From contig DATMES010000047.1 in assembly GCA_035556555.1 (NCBI GenBank), positions 1-37,100 of the forward strand: a stretch of DNA of 37,100 bases. Reading direction: 5' to 3'. The position numbers and the translations under genes were made by a program. Origin of the DNA: Frankiaceae bacterium. GTDB lineage: Bacteria > Actinomycetota > Actinomycetes > BP-191. This document shows positions 824 through 37,100 of the stretch, piece after piece. The notes beneath the pieces were generated by a model. The model was given only the letters and a program-made list of their open reading frames with translations. It was not told the origin of the DNA and made no database searches. Position 1 is the stretch's first letter. Each line of letters begins with the position of its first letter.

Positions 824-1231
824 ATGGCCGGCCGCATCCGCGTCGTCGTCGCGAAGCCGGGCCTCGACGGCCACGACCGCGGGGCCAAGGTCGTCGCGCG
901 CGCGCTGCGCGACGCCGGCATGGAGGTCATCTACACGGGCCTGCACCAGACGCCCGAGCAGATCGTCGAGACCGCAGTGCAGGAGGACGCCGACTGCGTC
1001 GGCCTGTCCGTGCTGTCGGGGGCGCACATGGCGCTGTTCCCGCGCGTCATCGAGCTGCTCAAGGAGCGCGACGCCGGCGACATCGTCGTGTTCGGCGGCG
1101 GGATCATCCCGGCGGCCGACATCCCCGAGCTGCAGGCGATGGGCGTGGCCAAGATCTTCACGCCGGGCGCGACCACCACCGAGATCATCGAGTGGGTACG
1201 CGGCAACGTCGGCTCCCCCTCGGCCGCCTGA
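824..1231 (+). CDS. Cobalamin-binding small subunit of an acyl-CoA (methylmalonyl-CoA) mutase
   Basis: A stand-alone 135-residue B12-binding subunit of a methylmalonyl-CoA-type mutase. With the large catalytic subunit it interconverts methylmalonyl-CoA and succinyl-CoA by adenosylcobalamin radical chemistry. The DxHxxG cobalamin motif is at residues 15-20 (LDGHDRGAK), where His is the lower axial ligand; SVLSGAH and FGGGIIP are the usual nucleotide-tail contacts. The length equals the C-terminal domain of fused mutases, so this is a split-subunit enzyme. A strong AAGGGAG precedes the ATG. The stop overlaps the next start (TGATG), so it is coupled to the aminotransferase gene. A matching large-subunit gene starts at 36840, about 36 kb away. 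The exact acyl-CoA substrate could differ, for example isobutyryl-CoA or ethylmalonyl-CoA. Confidence 0.9.
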
Positions 1232-2340
1232 TGCTCGGCGACCAGCGGCACCTGTTCGCGATGCCGGACGGCGTGACGTACCTCAACTGCGCCTACCTCG
1301 CCCCCCAGCTCCGTTCCGTCTCCGAGGCCGGCCTTGCCGCGGTGACGCTCAAGGAGCTGCCGTGGGACGTGACGCCGGACAAGTTCTTCTCCGGGAGCGA
1401 GGCGCTGCGGACGACGTTCGCCCGGCTCGCGGGCGTCGATGCCGAGGGTGTGGCGTTCGTCCCCAGCGTGTCGTACGGCGTCGGCGTCGCGGCGGCGAAC
1501 CTGCCGTTGAACGGCCGCTCCGTGCTCATGCTCGCGGAGGACTTCCCGAGCGACGTGTACGGCTGGCAAGCGGCAGGCACCGTCGTCACCGTCGAGCGGC
1601 CTGACGACGACGACTGGACGCGCGCGGTGCTCGACCGCATCGACTCGTCCATCGGCGTCGTCGCGGTGCCGCACGTGCACTGGACCGATGGCGGGCTGGT
1701 CGACCTCGTCCGCGTCGGCGCGGCGGCGCGCTCGGTGGGCGCGGCACTGGTCGTGGACGCGACGCAGTCGCTCGGCGCGCTGCCCCTCGACCTCGACGCC
1801 GTACGCCCCGACTTCCTCATCGCGGCCGGCTACAAGTGGCTGCTCGGGCCGTACTCCCTCGGCTACCTCTGGGTCGCGCCCGAGCACCGCTCTGGCGTGC
1901 CCCTCGAGGCCAACTGGATCAACCGCGAGGCCAGCGACGACTTCGCGCGGCTCATCGACTACCGCGAGGGCTACCAGCCGGGCGCGCGTCGCTACGACGT
2001 CGGCGAGCGTTCCAACTTCGTGCTCGTCCCGATGGCGCAGGCCGCGCTGACGCAGCTCGTCGAGTGGACCGTGCCGGAGATCGCGTCGACGACGGCCGCG
2101 CTGACGTCGTACCTCGCGAACGGCGCCGACAAGCTCGGGCTGCGTACGGCGCCCGAGCACCTCCGCGGGCCGCACCTCATGGGCATCCGCTTTCCCGCGG
2201 GCCTGCCGGACGGCATCTACGACACCCTCGCGGCGCAGCGGATCTATGTCAGCGTCCGCGGCGACTCCGTGCGGGTGGCACCGCACGTCTACAACACGAC
2301 CGACGACTGCGACCGCCTCCTCGAAGCGTTGGGCGGCTGA
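1231..2340 (+). CDS. Class V aminotransferase / cysteine desulfurase-like PLP enzyme
   Basis: A fold-type I PLP enzyme of the class V aminotransferase superfamily, 369 residues. The cofactor-contact segment VVDATQSLG (Asp176) and the Schiff-base lysine K202 in AAGYKWLLGPYS are both present. YLNCAYLAP near the N-terminus is the usual substrate-side loop. The ATG at 1231 overlaps the preceding TGA by one base, indicating translational coupling to the B12 subunit; an in-frame upstream start at 1192 would overlap that gene and is less likely. The family includes kynureninases, desulfurases and isopenicillin epimerase-like proteins; the substrate cannot be assigned. Why such an enzyme is coupled to a mutase subunit is not evident. 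Confidence 0.85.
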   Translation: MLGDQRHLFAMPDGVTYLNCAYLAPQLRSVSEAGLAAVTLKELPWDVTPDKFFSGSEALRTTFARLAGVDAEGVAFVPSVSYGVGVAAANLPLNGRSVLMLAEDFPSDVYGWQAAGTVVTVERPDDDDWTRAVLDRIDSSIGVVAVPHVHWTDGGLVDLVRVGAAARSVGAALVVDATQSLGALPLDLDAVRPDFLIAAGYKWLLGPYSLGYLWVAPEHRSGVPLEANWINREASDDFARLIDYREGYQPGARRYDVGERSNFVLVPMAQAALTQLVEWTVPEIASTTAALTSYLANGADKLGLRTAPEHLRGPHLMGIRFPAGLPDGIYDTLAAQRIYVSVRGDSVRVAPHVYNTTDDCDRLLEALGG

Positions 2341-2353
2341 GCCGGGGGCGCCT

Positions 2354-2432
2354 CGGAAGTGACCGGTGAGTACGGACTGAGGCTCGTGCTCGAGCGGTGA
2401 CTTTGGCAGTCCGTACTCACCGGTAACTTCCG
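2354..2432. repeat. Hairpin repeat family A, copy 1 (A1)
   Basis: Two 24-base arms (2356-2379 and 2407-2430) are inverted complements with one mismatch, and the stem extends two more pairs outward. The core is ACCGGTGAGTACGGACT. The 27-base loop ends in CGGTGACTTTGG, which is also present in the loop of copy A3. It lies between the aminotransferase stop and the convergent Cys/His-rich gene, so it could serve as a bidirectional terminator, but it has no U-tract. Confidence 0.8.
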
Positions 2433-2442
2433 GGCCGCTTGG

Positions 2443-3015
2443 CTAGCCCGGCGGGACGCAGCAGCCGTCGCACTCCTCGGCGTGTCCCAGGGCGCGCGAC
2501 CAGCGGCGGTCGTCGGGGTCGGGGTGCAGCATCCCGTGGGGGCACTCGCGCACGGTGAGCCGCATCGTGTCGCCGTGGAACTGCGGCCAGCCCCGCATGT
2601 GGTGGTCCGTCGGGTCGTGGAGCGGGCAGGCGCCGTCGCCGTCGCAGTGGCGCGCGCTGTGCGCGACGACACCGACCAGCAGCAGGCCGAGCTCGGCACC
2701 GCCCACCACGGTCCAGCCGTCCCCCGGCGCGTGCTCGCCGGTGGGCACCGTGCAGCAGCCGTCGCACTCCTCCGCGTGCTCCCGTGACGAGTGCGGCAGC
2801 CACCGCGGTGTTGTCCGGGTCCGGGTGGTACGGCCCGTGCGGGCAGGCGCGCACGGTGAGGTTCGTCCGCTGCCCGTGCCACTGCATCCACGTCCGCATG
2901 TGGTGACGGGTCTGGGAGTGCTGGGGGCAGGGGCCCCCGTCACAGAGCTTCGGACGTGGTCCGAGGCGCCGGGCTTCAGCGCGTCCAGCCGCACCCCGCC
3001 GACGATCGCGTCCAC
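2443..3015 (-). pseudogene. Cys/His-rich tandem-domain protein with two offsetting frameshifts
   Basis: Function unknown. The reverse strand from GTG 3015 to TAG 2443 encodes about 190 residues only if two shifts are allowed. Residues 1 to about 22 ([16 protein letters not shown]...) are in one frame. The first Cys/His unit (CDGG...[14 protein letters not shown]...) is one frame over, and the rest returns to the first frame, so the changes (near 2945-2960 and 2775-2790) cancel. The two units, about 62 residues each, share CDGxxCPxHxxTxHHMRxW, LTVRxCPHGxxHPDPD and HAEECDGCC. That is roughly a dozen conserved Cys/His per unit, suggesting zinc binding (inference). A linker of about 35 residues with a hydrophobic patch joins them. 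The gene is bracketed by repeats A1 and A2. It may be a decaying gene, a sequencing artefact, or a recoded gene. Confidence 0.6.
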
Positions 3016-3049
3016 GCCCGCATTCTGCCCGGCCCGTGGCGCCGCCCTC

Positions 3050-3126
3050 CGCGGTTACTGGTGAGTAGCGCCGGGCGCCGAGCACGAACTGGTGAACGGC
3101 GACGTCGCTACTCACCAGTAACCGCG
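3050..3126. repeat. Hairpin repeat family A, copy 2 (A2)
   Basis: Perfect 20-base arms at 3051-3070 and 3106-3125 (GCGGTTACTGGTGAGTAGCG and its complement) extend by one more pair. The loop is 35 bases. Its core TTACTGGTGAGTA matches A1 and A3 (TTACCGGTGAGTA), but the loop differs. It lies between the divergent Cys/His-rich gene and sucC, so it cannot be a simple terminator for both. Confidence 0.75.
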
Positions 3127-3143
3127 CTCAGCGCGGGACGGGT

Positions 3144-3149
3144 TAGGCT
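3144..3149 (+). promoter_or_regulatory. Candidate -10 element for sucCD
   Basis: TAGGCT matches TANNNT, 32 bases before the sucC GTG. GGAGG at 3173-3177 is the ribosome-binding site that fixes the start at 3182. The -35 region would fall inside the right arm of hairpin A2. Confidence 0.4.
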
Positions 3150-3181
3150 TCGCGGCGCCGCGAGACGACACCGGAGGACGC

Positions 3182-4351
3182 GTGGACCTGTTCGAGTACC
3201 AGGCAAGGGACCTGTTCGCCCAGTACGGCGTTCCGGTCACCCAGGGGCAGGTCGCCACGACCCCCGAGGAGGCCCGGGTCGCCGCCGAACGCATCGGCGG
3301 CCAGACGGTCGTCAAGGCGCAGGTCAAGACCGGCGGCCGCGGCAAGGCGGGCGGCGTCAAGCTCGCCGACGACCCCGCCGACGCGCAGGCGAAGGCCGAG
3401 CAGATCCTCGGCATGGACATCAAGGGCCACACGGTGCACCGGGTCCTCGTGGCCGAGGCGAGCGACATCGCCGAGGAGTACTACTTCTCCTTCCTGCTCG
3501 ACCGGTCCAACAGGACGTTCCTCGCGATGTGCTCCTCCGAGGGCGGCATGGACATCGAGGAGGTCGCGCGCACCAAGCCCGAGATGCTCGCGAAGATCCC
3601 GGTCGACGCGACCAAAGGCGTCGACGTGGCGTTCGCCAAGGAGATCGTCACCGCCGGCCACCTGCCGGAGGACGTACGAGACCAGGCCGCCGAGCTCGTC
3701 GCCAAGCTGTGGACCTGCTTCAAGAACGAGGACGCCACGCTCGTCGAGGTCAACCCGATGGTGAAGACCCCCGACGGCCGCGTCCTCGCGCTCGACGGCA
3801 AGGTCACGCTCGACGGCAACGCCGACTTCCGCCACCCCGGGCACGAGGCGCTGGTCGACCGCGCCGCGGAGGACCCGCTCGAGGCGCGCGCCAAGGAGAA
3901 GGACCTCAACTACGTCAAGCTCGACGACGGCACCGTCGGCATCATCGGCAACGGTGCCGGCCTCGTCATGAGCACGCTGGACGTCGTGGCGTACGCCGGC
4001 GAGGAGTTCGGCGGGCAGCGCCCGGCCAACTTCCTCGACATCGGCGGCGGCGCCTCCGCGCAGGTCATGGCCGACGGCCTGTCGATCGTGCTCAGCGACC
4101 CCGACGTGAAGAGCGTGTTCGTCAACGTGTTCGGCGGCATCACCGCCTGCGACGCGGTGGCCGACGGCATCGTGCAGGCGATCGGCCTGCTCGGCGGCGT
4201 GGACAAGCCGATCGTCGTACGACTCGACGGCAACAACGCCGAGGAGGGCAGGCGCATCCTCGACGGCGCCGGCATCAGCACCCTGACCAGGGTGGACACC
4301 ATGGACGGCGCCGCCAAGCTCGCCGCCGAGCTCGCTTCGAAGGGCGCGTAA
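3182..4351 (+). CDS. sucC: Succinyl-CoA synthetase beta subunit (ADP-forming type)
   Basis: Nucleotide- and succinate-binding subunit of succinyl-CoA synthetase, the TCA step that makes ATP or GTP from succinyl-CoA. At 389 residues it is full length. The N-terminal ATP-grasp domain begins with [19 protein letters not shown] and carries the lysine-glycine loop [15 protein letters not shown]. The C-terminal CoA-ligase domain contains [15 protein letters not shown] and [13 protein letters not shown]. The GTG start is set by GGAGG five bases upstream. sucD follows after five bases. In this window the product of the methylmalonyl-CoA mutase, succinyl-CoA, is the natural substrate of SucCD. Confidence 0.97.
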
Positions 4352-21605: not shown

Positions 21606-21680
21606 GATGTTACCGGTGAGTACGGACTGGCGGCCGTGCGGCAACGGTGACTTTGGCGGTCCGTACCCACCGGTAACATC
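21606..21680. repeat. Hairpin repeat family A, copy 3 (A3)
   Basis: Arms 21606-21629 and 21657-21680 pair over 24 positions with two imperfect pairs (one of them a G-T wobble). The core TTACCGGTGAGTACGGACT is that of A1. The loop is again 27 bases and ends in CGGTGACTTTGG as in A1. It lies between two genes on the same strand, just after the CorC-type gene. Confidence 0.8.
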
Positions 21681-34234: not shown

Positions 34235-34792
34235 TCAGTACAGAACGCGCCCGACGTTCGGAACGCGCTTGTCACACTTCGTGCCGCCGAAATCGAACTG
34301 AGCGTAACCGGTGCCGATGGCGCCGGTGCCCATGTCGACGTACTGCGTTCCGACCGCGTGCACGCTCGCCTCGTCGATCACGGCGCGCATGTTGCGGAAC
34401 TCGTAGATCTGCGCGCCGCTTGGAAGGAACACGACGAACGTCCCCGTGCTCACGGCCTCGCCCGTGCAGTACCAGACGTCGTTCGGCACGAAGCTGCCCT
34501 TGTAGAAGAACGAGCAGCGAACGACCTCCGGCCCCTCTACGCCGACCGCGATGACGGCGCTGCACTCATCGTCGTTGATGGCCGGGTTGTACGAGTCGAC
34601 CTGGACGAAGGGCAGGCGCGTCTGCCCGTCGGCGGGCAGGTCGACGATGCCGACCCCGTTGAACGTCGCGCTGTACAGCCGCACGACGGCGGCATCGTCC
34701 GCGGCGTGTCCCGCCGCCGGCGCGCCCAGGGTCAACGCCGTCACCGCGCCGAGGAGGGCGATGGCGCGGGTGATCGGCCGGCGGGCGCTCAC
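34235..34792 (-). CDS. Secreted protein of unknown function
   Basis: 185 residues with a signal peptide (about 1-30, GHA-A). The mature protein is beta-rich with four cysteines (DECSA, VRCSF, WYCTG, TKCDK) and no recognisable domain. The GTG start overlaps the stop of the upstream gene by four bases (GTGA), so the pair is co-translated and may act together. It ends at a strong hairpin. Confidence 0.75.
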   Translation of the reverse strand: MSARRPITRAIALLGAVTALTLGAPAAGHAADDAAVVRLYSATFNGVGIVDLPADGQTRLPFVQVDSYNPAINDDECSAVIAVGVEGPEVVRCSFFYKGSFVPNDVWYCTGEAVSTGTFVVFLPSGAQIYEFRNMRAVIDEASVHAVGTQYVDMGTGAIGTGYAQFDFGGTKCDKRVPNVGRVLY

Positions 34793-35319
34793 AGGACCTC
34801 ACCGCCATAGGTGCCGGAACCGCCGCACGCGTTGGTGTACGTGCCGGTCACGACGGCGACGCTCGCCCCCAGCGCGTGCACGCCGGAGAACGTGGCGGTC
34901 GTGGCCGTGACGCTGACCGTCACAGGGATGTCCCTGAACGGGGACGTCGGCGAGGGCCGGTAGCGGAAGGTGCCGGTGCCGGCACCGAAGCAGAGGGTCT
35001 GCACGGCGTCCTGCTCCCGCGGGCGGATCTTGACGAAGAACGGCGCGGTCGTCGCGGTCAGGTTGCCCACGCACTGCGTGAGGATCGAACCCTCGGAGGT
35101 GCTGACCGACGTCTGGCAGAACGACGACGCGGCCGTCGTCTCGCAGGTCCCGTTGCCCTGGCTCGTGCCCTGGCCGGGGTCGCTCGGCGCGTCGCAGGTG
35201 GTGGTGGACGACCCGGTGAACGTCGACAGGGCAGCGTGCGCCGACTGGGTCGGCAGCAGCAGTGCCGCTGCCGCGGCCCCGCCGACGACAGCCGTACGGA
35301 TGGTCTTTCGGTACGTCAT
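34789..35319 (-). CDS. Secreted Ser/Thr- and Cys-containing protein of unknown function
   Basis: 176 residues with a signal peptide (about 1-29, SAHA-A). The mature part is rich in Ser, Thr and Gly and has six cysteines, including TTTCDAP, GTCETT, SFCQTS and NACGGSG; paired disulfides are likely. No family recognised. GAAGGAG lies 11 bases before the ATG. It is co-translated with the following secreted protein. Confidence 0.75.
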   Translation of the reverse strand: MTYRKTIRTAVVGGAAAAALLLPTQSAHAALSTFTGSSTTTCDAPSDPGQGTSQGNGTCETTAASSFCQTSVSTSEGSILTQCVGNLTATTAPFFVKIRPREQDAVQTLCFGAGTGTFRYRPSPTSPFRDIPVTVSVTATTATFSGVHALGASVAVVTGTYTNACGGSGTYGGEVL

Positions 35320-35480
35320 TTCCCATCGTCTCCTTCTCGTGGCCGGTCCATTGCCGGCGTTATCGAGCAAGAGGGTCGCGGCCGCGAGTTTCCCCCTACG
35401 GCGATCGGCGTCCGCTGCGCGGAACCGATCGGGTCGAAGGGTACGTTTCGTCTCAGGGGGGTCTATGGGGGTTGCGCCGT

Positions 35481-36738
35481 TTACGGCAAGAATTCCGAAC
35501 GCGCCCACGTCCGCCCCCCGTCGGCTGAGACGTAGACGCCGAAGAAAGTCGGGAACTTCGCGGCCATGGTCACGAGGCGCCCGCTGGGCAGCAGCTCCAA
35601 CGCACCGGCTGCCGCCCGCGACCCGATCCCTTCGCTGTTCCAGGGCAGGGTGCCGGCCCGCCCGCGCTGACCGAAGGCGAGGCCGGACGCGATCCGGCGC
35701 CATGACCGCCCGCCGTCGTGGCTCCGCAGGATCTGCTCGCCCGGGGGTGCGGGGGGCGACGCCGTGAGGGGACCCGAACGCGGGAACGGGTCGTAGCTGA
35801 CGCGGGCGTACATGGTCCGTTCGCCGGGCCGCGAGGCGAGTGACACGAGGGGCCAGTAGGCATTGACCAGCGGCGCCAGGAACGCGTCGAGCGCGGTCCA
35901 GCGATGGAAGGTGCGCCCGCGGTCCGAGGACTGCCACGCGCTCACCCGGGACTGCTGGTCGGCCAGGACCGCGAAGAGCCGGCCGCTCGTCGCGAAGTCC
36001 GGCGCGAACCAGCCTTCCTGCCAGTCGAGCCCCGCGGGGAACGCGAACAGCGCGCGCGCACGCGAGCCCGGCATCGCACTCGTAGAGGCGGGTCCTCGCA
36101 CCGAGCAGCGCGCCCGGGTCGGTCTCCAGCGACGCCACGAACGCTGACCCGGGCGCCGACAGGAACTGCAGCTCGGTGCCGGGGGAGCCCGCCACAGGGA
36201 CGTGCGCGGGCGGGCTCACCAGCGCAGGGACCTGGTCGGCGAACGCGAGCGCCGCCGGGACCGGCGTGCCCGGTACGACGGCATCGCCGGCGTAGGGGGT
36301 GAGGTTCCTGTGCGTCGTGGCGGAGTCGGTCAGCGGCGCGAGAGGGAGCCAGGTGTCGCCCCCGTCGGTCGTGCGCAGCAGGCCGCGGCCCGCGGCGTGC
36401 AGGTAGATCGCGCCGTCAGCGGCGTACGCCGGCGAGAACACGACCTGCTTGAGCGACTGGCTCGCGATCGGGCTGAGGCCGGTGCCACGCATCTTGCGCC
36501 ACGTCCGCCCCGCGTCGACGGTCCGGTAGACGGACGCGTTCCCGTTCGGGGTCACGGTGCCGGTCTCGTAGTCGAGCGTCGCACAGAGGCCGGTCCGGTC
36601 GGCGGCGACGAAGGGCGAGAACGCCATCACCTGGCACCGGAACGCGCCGGGCCCGGGGACCGTCGCGTCCGCCGCGGGACCCGGCAACGCCGCCGCCGCG
36701 ACCAGCGTCAGGACAGTCAGCAGCCCTCGAAGGCGCAC
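35481..36738 (-). pseudogene. Secreted BNR/Asp-box repeat protein, frameshifted in a GC tract
   Basis: A sialidase-like beta-propeller protein of about 418 residues if one frameshift is repaired. The signal peptide follows GTG 36738 ([20 protein letters not shown]); GGGAGGGG upstream sets the start. Five Asp-boxes (SxDxGxTW type) lie along it: TVDAGRTW and TTDGGDTW in the first frame, SSDRGRTF, SHDGGRSW and SADGGRTW in the second. The frames switch at the (GC)n run 36050-36064. Gain of one GC unit would restore LACARALFAFPAGLDW. It could be an assembly error or a slippage-prone switch. No catalytic sialidase Arg/Tyr set is evident; the ligand is unknown. Confidence 0.7.
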
Positions 36739-36766
36739 GTTGTCCCCCTCCCGCCGGTCCGCTCCC

Positions 36767-36795
36767 ATGTCAGGGCGTCTCTCCCAATTCGTCAA
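36767..36795 (-). promoter_or_regulatory. Candidate promoter of the BNR-repeat gene
   Basis: Reverse strand: TTGACG (-35, 36795-36790), 17-base spacer, TGACAT (-10, 36772-36767), about 30 bases before the GTG. Confidence 0.45.
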
Positions 36796-36826
36796 GGGGG
36801 GCGGCAGTCCTGGCACGGGGCGTCGG

Positions 36827-36832
36827 TAGCAT
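36827..36832 (+). promoter_or_regulatory. Candidate -10 element of a leaderless mutase transcript
   Basis: TAGCAT (TANNNT) ends seven bases before the mutase ATG at 36840, and no Shine-Dalgarno is present. This is the spacing expected of a leaderless actinobacterial mRNA. Confidence 0.45.
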
Positions 36833-36839
36833 CGGCGGC

Positions 36840-37100
36840 ATGACAGACGGGCGTACGTCGGAGTCGGGGCTGCCCATCCAGCCGGTGTACGCACCGGCCG
36901 ACCTCGACGGGTTCGACCCGGCGGCGGCGCTGGGGGAGCCGGGCGCGTACCCGTTCACGCGCGGCGTCTATCCGACGATGTACACCGGCAAGCCGTGGAC
37001 GATGCGGCAGTACGCCGGCTTCGGCACCGCCAAGGAGTCGAACGAGCGCTACCACGCGCTGCTGAACGCCGGCACGACCGGCCTCTCCGTGGCGTTCGAC
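36840..37100 (+). CDS. Acyl-CoA (methylmalonyl-CoA) mutase large subunit, 5' part
   Basis: The first 87 residues of the catalytic TIM-barrel subunit of a B12-dependent acyl-CoA mutase, running off the right edge. [42 protein letters not shown] and [10 protein letters not shown] are the classic N-terminal blocks (substrate tunnel and the Tyr/Arg active-site strand). It probably pairs with the small B12 subunit at 824-1231 if the protein lacks its own C-terminal B12 domain, which cannot be seen here. The gene appears leaderless. Confidence 0.92.

Follow-up and report, generated by a model that had tools for sequence, protein, structure and literature searches.

The open reading frame (ORF) at 2443..3015 of the DNA analysed here, a stretch of 37,100 nucleotides from a Frankiaceae bacterium which we refer to as the window, contains two copies of one Cys/His domain, one of them intact and the other interrupted by two frame switches. 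Judged from the sequences that we compared, this domain belongs mainly to phages, and it appears undescribed in Pfam-A, NCBIfam, PHROGs v4 and the PDB as searched. We give about an even chance to the explanation, taken as a whole, that a phage domain was captured and duplicated in tandem, and that unit 1 was then lost while unit 2 stayed usable.

Two units of a Cys/His domain in one open reading frame

The order along the ORF is the start of unit 1, an out-of-frame part, the end of unit 1 and then unit 2. The parts, with the evidence used to delimit them in brackets, are as follows.

2443..3015, minus strand: ORF of 190 aa with a GTG start at 3015, open throughout
2951..3015 (border approximate), minus strand: N-terminal part of unit 1, in the ORF frame (third-position GC, alignment)
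2945..2960, minus strand: first frame switch, a few bases from a GGGGGCCCC run (third-position GC, codon-usage model)
2789..2950, minus strand: core of unit 1, readable solely in another frame than that of the ORF (third-position GC, homology to unit 2)
2775..2790, minus strand: second frame switch, which cancels the first (third-position GC, codon-usage model)
2752..2778, minus strand: C-terminal tail of unit 1, HAEECDGCC, again in the ORF frame (third-position GC, DNA comparison)
2446..2718, minus strand: unit 2, an intact Cys/His domain of 91 aa in the ORF frame

On searching the genome itself with a query of 112 aa, made up of unit 2 plus the tail of unit 1, the core of unit 1 (2789-2950) was recovered with an E value of 1.8e-15 and 57% identity, and the HAEECDGCC tails of the two units were 96% identical at the DNA level. 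The resemblance of the units is not due to chance, and the proposal of the initial annotation that 2443-3015 holds two copies of one Cys/His domain is thereby borne out. It had also placed unit 1 in a frame different from that of the protein start and of unit 2, and indeed the core is found only in the frame of an overlapping ORF, 2417..3115. The length of about 62 residues given there for each unit was too short, the units being about 80-90 residues long. Unit 2 alone is a family member of normal size. In an alignment of 113 sequences, in which both window units are counted, 24 columns are conserved at 90% or more; unit 2 retains 20 of these, and unit 1, when an X is put at each junction, retains 19.

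Comparison of unit 1 with unit 2 in their own frames gave a dN/dS of 0.61-0.65, and shifted readings of the same block gave 0.91 and 1.07. By this measure, the constraint between the two units appears to be weak.

Position of the frame switches

When determined in windows of 90 bases, the third-position GC was high first in the ORF frame (0.90 at 3030-2941), then in the other frame (0.97 for the two windows covering 2940-2821), and returned to the ORF frame in the windows from 2790 to 2431 (0.93-1.00), in agreement with the earlier statement that each piece has coding-type third positions in its respective frame. A codon-usage model with a switch penalty of 8 placed the switches at 2952 and 2782, each inside the interval (2945-2960 and 2775-2790) in which a one-base slip, cancelled by the other, had been proposed. 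Since the two slips cancel, the reading frame continues without a stop into unit 2. At penalties of 10 and above, the coding call was limited to the part with unit 2:

2446..2748, minus strand: unit 2 from an internal GTG, predicted as coding from codon usage

No well-placed ribosome site was seen by eye for this internal GTG.

Occurrence of the domain in phages and bacteria

Searches that started from the two units, as had been suggested at the outset for a profile, yielded relatives in phages, viral contigs and genome assemblies. With the 112-aa query, tblastn returned 27 phage records, the best with an E value of 1e-5 and all annotated as 'hypothetical protein'; by host these were Gordonia (19), Streptomyces (4), Mycobacterium (3) and Stenotrophomonas (1). 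Scanning of viral contigs with the family profile showed that 373 of 388 candidate stretches encode relatives, and the best 80 of the 373 loci, some of them from the same phages as the tblastn records, were kept for study. The window pair alone gave 7 relatives among 17 stretches in a viral scan. From genome assemblies, a profile scan identified 36 relative loci among 327 candidate stretches, mostly in Actinomycetota, with a few in MAGs of other bacteria and in two archaeal lineages, and with some lying on phage or prophage contigs; when genome contigs were scanned with unit 2 alone, no relative was found among 37 candidate stretches. Plasmids searched by tblastn with a phage member gave no match. 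In scans of the class and the phylum, the two-unit profile matched 11 of 393 genomes at an E value of 0.01, the convincing ones being the own genome and G274 and the remaining nine (0.004-0.009) being unconvincing, while the phage profile matched one of 396 genomes, the own one, and a larger profile matched one of 393, G274. Against the phage profile A3 (14 rows, one of them unit 2 itself) the E value was 4.2e-27 for unit 2, and 9.4e-13 for the core of unit 1; the similarity of both to the family is significant across the domain, and the tblastn match to phages (best E value 1e-5) bears this out independently of A3.

All 93 ORFs inspected (93/93) carry one domain each, in 92 of them with its whole length in one frame, and in 32 of the 36 genome loci the domain lies within one ORF (four Modestobacter loci among these have its second part alone). 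No second unit was found in the 93 ORFs or in the 36 genome loci examined. In two loci, L166 and L171, a second short piece was the tail of the same domain, and both had seemed to lack the C-terminal Cys because the best segment ended there. Four copies are damaged, one among the 80 viral loci (L062) and three among the 36 genome loci (L178, L184 and L185), by an in-frame stop, a frame break or an internal loss that differs in each case; given these differently broken copies, decay of the domain does not seem to be rare.

By sequence and alignment, the same domain makes up hypothetical proteins of several actinophages, namely Gordonia phages Sixama (gp186), Daredevil (gp8), Bantam (gp80) and Neville (gp67), Mycobacterium phage Phrappuccino (gp110) and Streptomyces phage BRock (gp106). 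These are single in-frame units located mostly near replication genes, whereas the window has two units, one of which is scrambled. The Geodermatophilus and Modestobacter genes are chromosomal like the window gene, but have one intact unit. Three of the Geodermatophilus loci (L163, L173 and L174) share a common synteny, and phage genes were not noticed beside L173. Four comparisons of the Geodermatophilus single-unit forms, in which L175 was also used, gave a dN/dS of 0.23-0.37, and these chromosomal forms are under purifying selection; for three Modestobacter pairs the values were 0.23, 0.41 and about 1.1, the last on very few changes.

Phage neighbourhoods and a fusion to ThyX

A replication, repair, DNA-modification or nucleotide gene lies at most 1.5 kb away in 10 of 12 annotated phage regions, the exceptions being Sixama and Skog, and four of the ten being related Streptomyces phages. 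Among 127 ORFs adjoining distinct viral copies, Pfam and PHROG searches gave matches to DnaB, Prim-Pol, DNA polymerase, RNA polymerase, PNK and AAA families, each in no more than 4 of the 127, and no constant phage partner was found among these ORFs. Such neighbourhoods are consistent with a role in DNA replication and nucleotide metabolism.

In G274, which is of the same class, the domain forms the N-terminus of ThyX in a single ORF (L004, 685-1863; two-unit profile, E value 4.8e-9), the ThyX part of which matches PF02511 with an E value of 3.1e-46; the window gene differs in having no enzyme part. A 298-aa ORF near this fusion resembles, by eye, a Cas4-type nuclease.

Absence from family libraries and known folds

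The suggestion that the domain might be undescribed held up in every library searched. In Pfam-A the window ORFs matched no family above the curated cut-off, and 64 members gave weak stray matches, of which the best was 0.0035 (DGC, 5 members); in NCBIfam, judged by its curated cut-off as well, there was no match for the window ORFs and one stray (0.014) for the 64 members. The best match of the domain segment in PHROGs v4, at 0.021, was not convincing; a match to phrog_16060 (0.0013) falls outside the domain, and the ThyX PHROGs match the enzyme part. No solved structure was found in the PDB by sequence, and a profile search of it gave no match up to an E value of 10. By fold, the best PDB match with Foldseek had an E value of 6.3, and none of 16 chains reached a Z of at least 2 with VIA-align. 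The HPDPD and CDGCC motifs yielded no mention of the domain in the full text searched, a coverage outside which most subscription papers and preprints lie. Small metal-binding domains in phages are of a known kind. The present domain is a new one of that kind, with the window copy as a divergent branch that has been duplicated.

Conserved residues, putative metal sites and predicted structure

The alignment of 113 sequences comprises 111 relatives and both window units, unit 1 being read with X at the junctions; its rows are distinct and score at least 70 bits, and L062, L178, L184, L185 and L186 lie outside it (alignments A4/A5 used 63/69 distinct viral segments). H39, R57, C59, H65 and D67 are invariant throughout and present in both window units. 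The presumed ligand columns are largely kept in both, in line with the dense, metal-binding-like Cys/His pattern that had been described for them. The phage family is conserved at R49, E56, G64 and H81, and it is at these positions that both window units depart from it. They do so in a like manner, with V at 56 and E at 81, the latter against H in 111 of 111 relatives, and both have H at 79.

H20, C31 and H34 are missing solely in four Modestobacter rows (L179, L181, L182 and L183), which likewise lack C25 and retain H39, C59, H65 and C83-C87. Thus four of the five Modestobacter loci are without the first four Cys/His ligands, and the fifth, from Modestobacter lapidis (L168), retains H20, C25, C31 and H34; the four losses amount to a single event. 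Four phage rows, too, have C25 shifted or lacking. At position 61 a ligand-type exchange is seen, 110 of the 113 rows having H and the other 3 having C. A Woesearchaeota locus (E value 3.8e-6, outside the 113) has the second half alone, without the PDPD part. This pattern of conservation suggests two separable metal sites.

Structure prediction for a phage member gave a confident model with a pLDDT of 89.9, a pTM of 0.76 and five short strands, and that of unit 2 of the window was mediocre (pLDDT 69.8). When compared with BFVD, the phage model had six matches with E values below 0.001 and TM scores of 0.72-0.83 on the query, all to its own relatives; the BFVD models of the Sixama, Daredevil, BRock and Neville proteins superpose on it with TM scores of 0.72-0.82. 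The absence of a structural match elsewhere is no proof of a new fold.

The chromosomal slot

The gene lies between two neighbours that are kept in both congeners, G001 and G002, and is flanked by palindromic repeats:

1192..2340, plus strand: class-V aminotransferase gene, left neighbour kept in both congeners (synteny)
3182..4351, plus strand: sucC-like succinyl-CoA ligase beta gene, right neighbour kept in both congeners (synteny)
2348..2438, no strand: palindromic repeat of the TACCGG subfamily, downstream of the gene (repeat search)
3050..3126, no strand: palindromic repeat of the TACTGG subfamily, upstream of the gene (repeat search)
21611-21675: further copy of the palindromic repeat family in the window

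The aminotransferase and sucC genes are syntenic in G001 and G002, and each congener has another ORF between them; that of G002 is a short secreted-looking peptide. No match to the domain was found in either genome. Because of these two observations the gene is probably a lineage-specific insertion, a loss in both congeners being less likely. The slot holds a different small gene in each species (window 2341-3181, L127 9628-10359, L128 3504-3780).

Exact-ended copies of the palindrome numbered 40 in G000 (all of 65 bp), 10 in G001 and 3 in G002, none was found in 37 other genomes of the class, and a reversed-pattern control gave 0. Among the genomes searched, the family occurs in this genus alone. 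Its two subfamilies are absent from Rfam, and nothing relevant was found in the literature among the matches listed. Of the 31 intergenic copies, 15 lie between convergent genes, against 48 convergent gaps among 245 overall, both sets being drawn from stretches that were chosen around copies.

A proposed capture of the domain with decay of one unit

The course of events that we favour would start from a metal-binding domain of about 80 residues, of an undescribed family, with its main home in the early or replication region of tailed phages. It would have reached this lineage recently, landing between the aminotransferase and sucC genes. The tandem duplication probably came after the domain had left the phage family, because the two units depart alike at 56 and 81 and both have H79. 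Two small cancelling indels, present in the assembled sequence and presumably real, would then have put unit 1 out of frame with unit 2 still being reached, and the likeliest working product would be unit 2 by itself or, within the 190-aa protein, the C-terminal half. Site 1 would consist of H20, C25, C31 and H34, and site 2 of C59, H61 and the C-terminal H-x-C-x2-C-C, with H65 and D67 beside it. In phages, the domain may act as a small zinc-dependent partner that binds DNA or replication and nucleotide enzymes. Most of the presumed metal ligands are present in the chromosomal copy, which differs from the family at R49, E56 and G64, positions that lie between these ligands; this copy may retain the fold and yet have lost the phage activity.

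That both slips are instead errors of assembly or sequencing, the true gene encoding two intact units, is a real if minority possibility in our judgement. The assembly is a draft of 71 contigs, the window has a GC content of about 73%, the first junction is a few bases from the GGGGGCCCC run and the third-position GC of unit 1 is still pristine. Furthermore, the same contig has another apparent frame break:

34789-36894, minus strand: BNR/Asp-box-like repeat gene (label by eye) with a break near 36078 (frame survey)

The gene continues in another frame as ORF 35481..36101. Its paralogue (G000:C26) is in one long open frame of 582 aa, with a match that covers the downstream part alone. We surveyed 435 kb of the own genome for frame changes using the codon-usage model at a penalty of 12, and obtained 92 switches, 23 overlap-like and 69 other. 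For 16 of the 69 the upstream stop was more than 60 bases off or there was none, and among the 13 of these that were read by eye the break at 36078 was the only true-looking one; of the 12 candidates read from the remaining 398 kb, none was a clear break. Against a background of one other clear break among 13 candidates, it would be unusual for two independent errors to fall within 180 bases of each other; the count is weak for short cancelled pairs, since the survey is blind to many of them and called the pair in 2443..3015 at a penalty of 8 only. On balance we lean towards a real, decaying unit 1 over an assembly error.

It is unlikely that neither unit is in use and that the gene as a whole is a dead phage relic. 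The lack of a congener match, the several broken relatives, the dN/dS between the units and the loss of R49, E56, G64 and H81 in both would fit such a relic, but unit 2 can still be reached in an open frame and has kept its 20 columns and a near-perfect third-position GC. Programmed frameshifting (-1, then +1) yielding a two-domain protein is highly implausible, even though few gaps are needed to align unit 1, its junctions filled by X, with unit 2 and the family: no frame change is needed in 92 of the 93 ORFs or in 32 of the 36 genome loci, the damaged relatives are broken in different ways, and no slippery heptamer of the common type was seen by eye. Recoding, one of the readings first offered for this gene, is thus without support. 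Equally hard to credit is a 190-aa protein that is functional as it stands, with the scrambled stretch as a linker ahead of unit 2. The ORF has no stop along its length, but the scrambled stretch abounds in T, R, S, P and G and by eye lacks HHMR, CPHG and HPDPD.

Along with capture followed by decay of unit 1, a broader reading may be put forward, which as a whole we consider doubtful. The family would be an undescribed, widespread phage metalloprotein in which the invariant H39, R57, H65 and D67 would make up an active site, or one that binds nucleotides, for the metabolism of phage DNA or thymidylate, the latter being proposed because of the ThyX fusion. Bacteria would have acquired the domain on more than one occasion, and the capture in the window would have been caught while duplicating and losing one copy. 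The interest lies in the domain, which is compact, very strongly conserved and common to many phages, the slips being ordinary decay or assembly noise. A family model would give a name to hundreds of unnamed phage proteins and would provide a tractable target for phage biochemistry.
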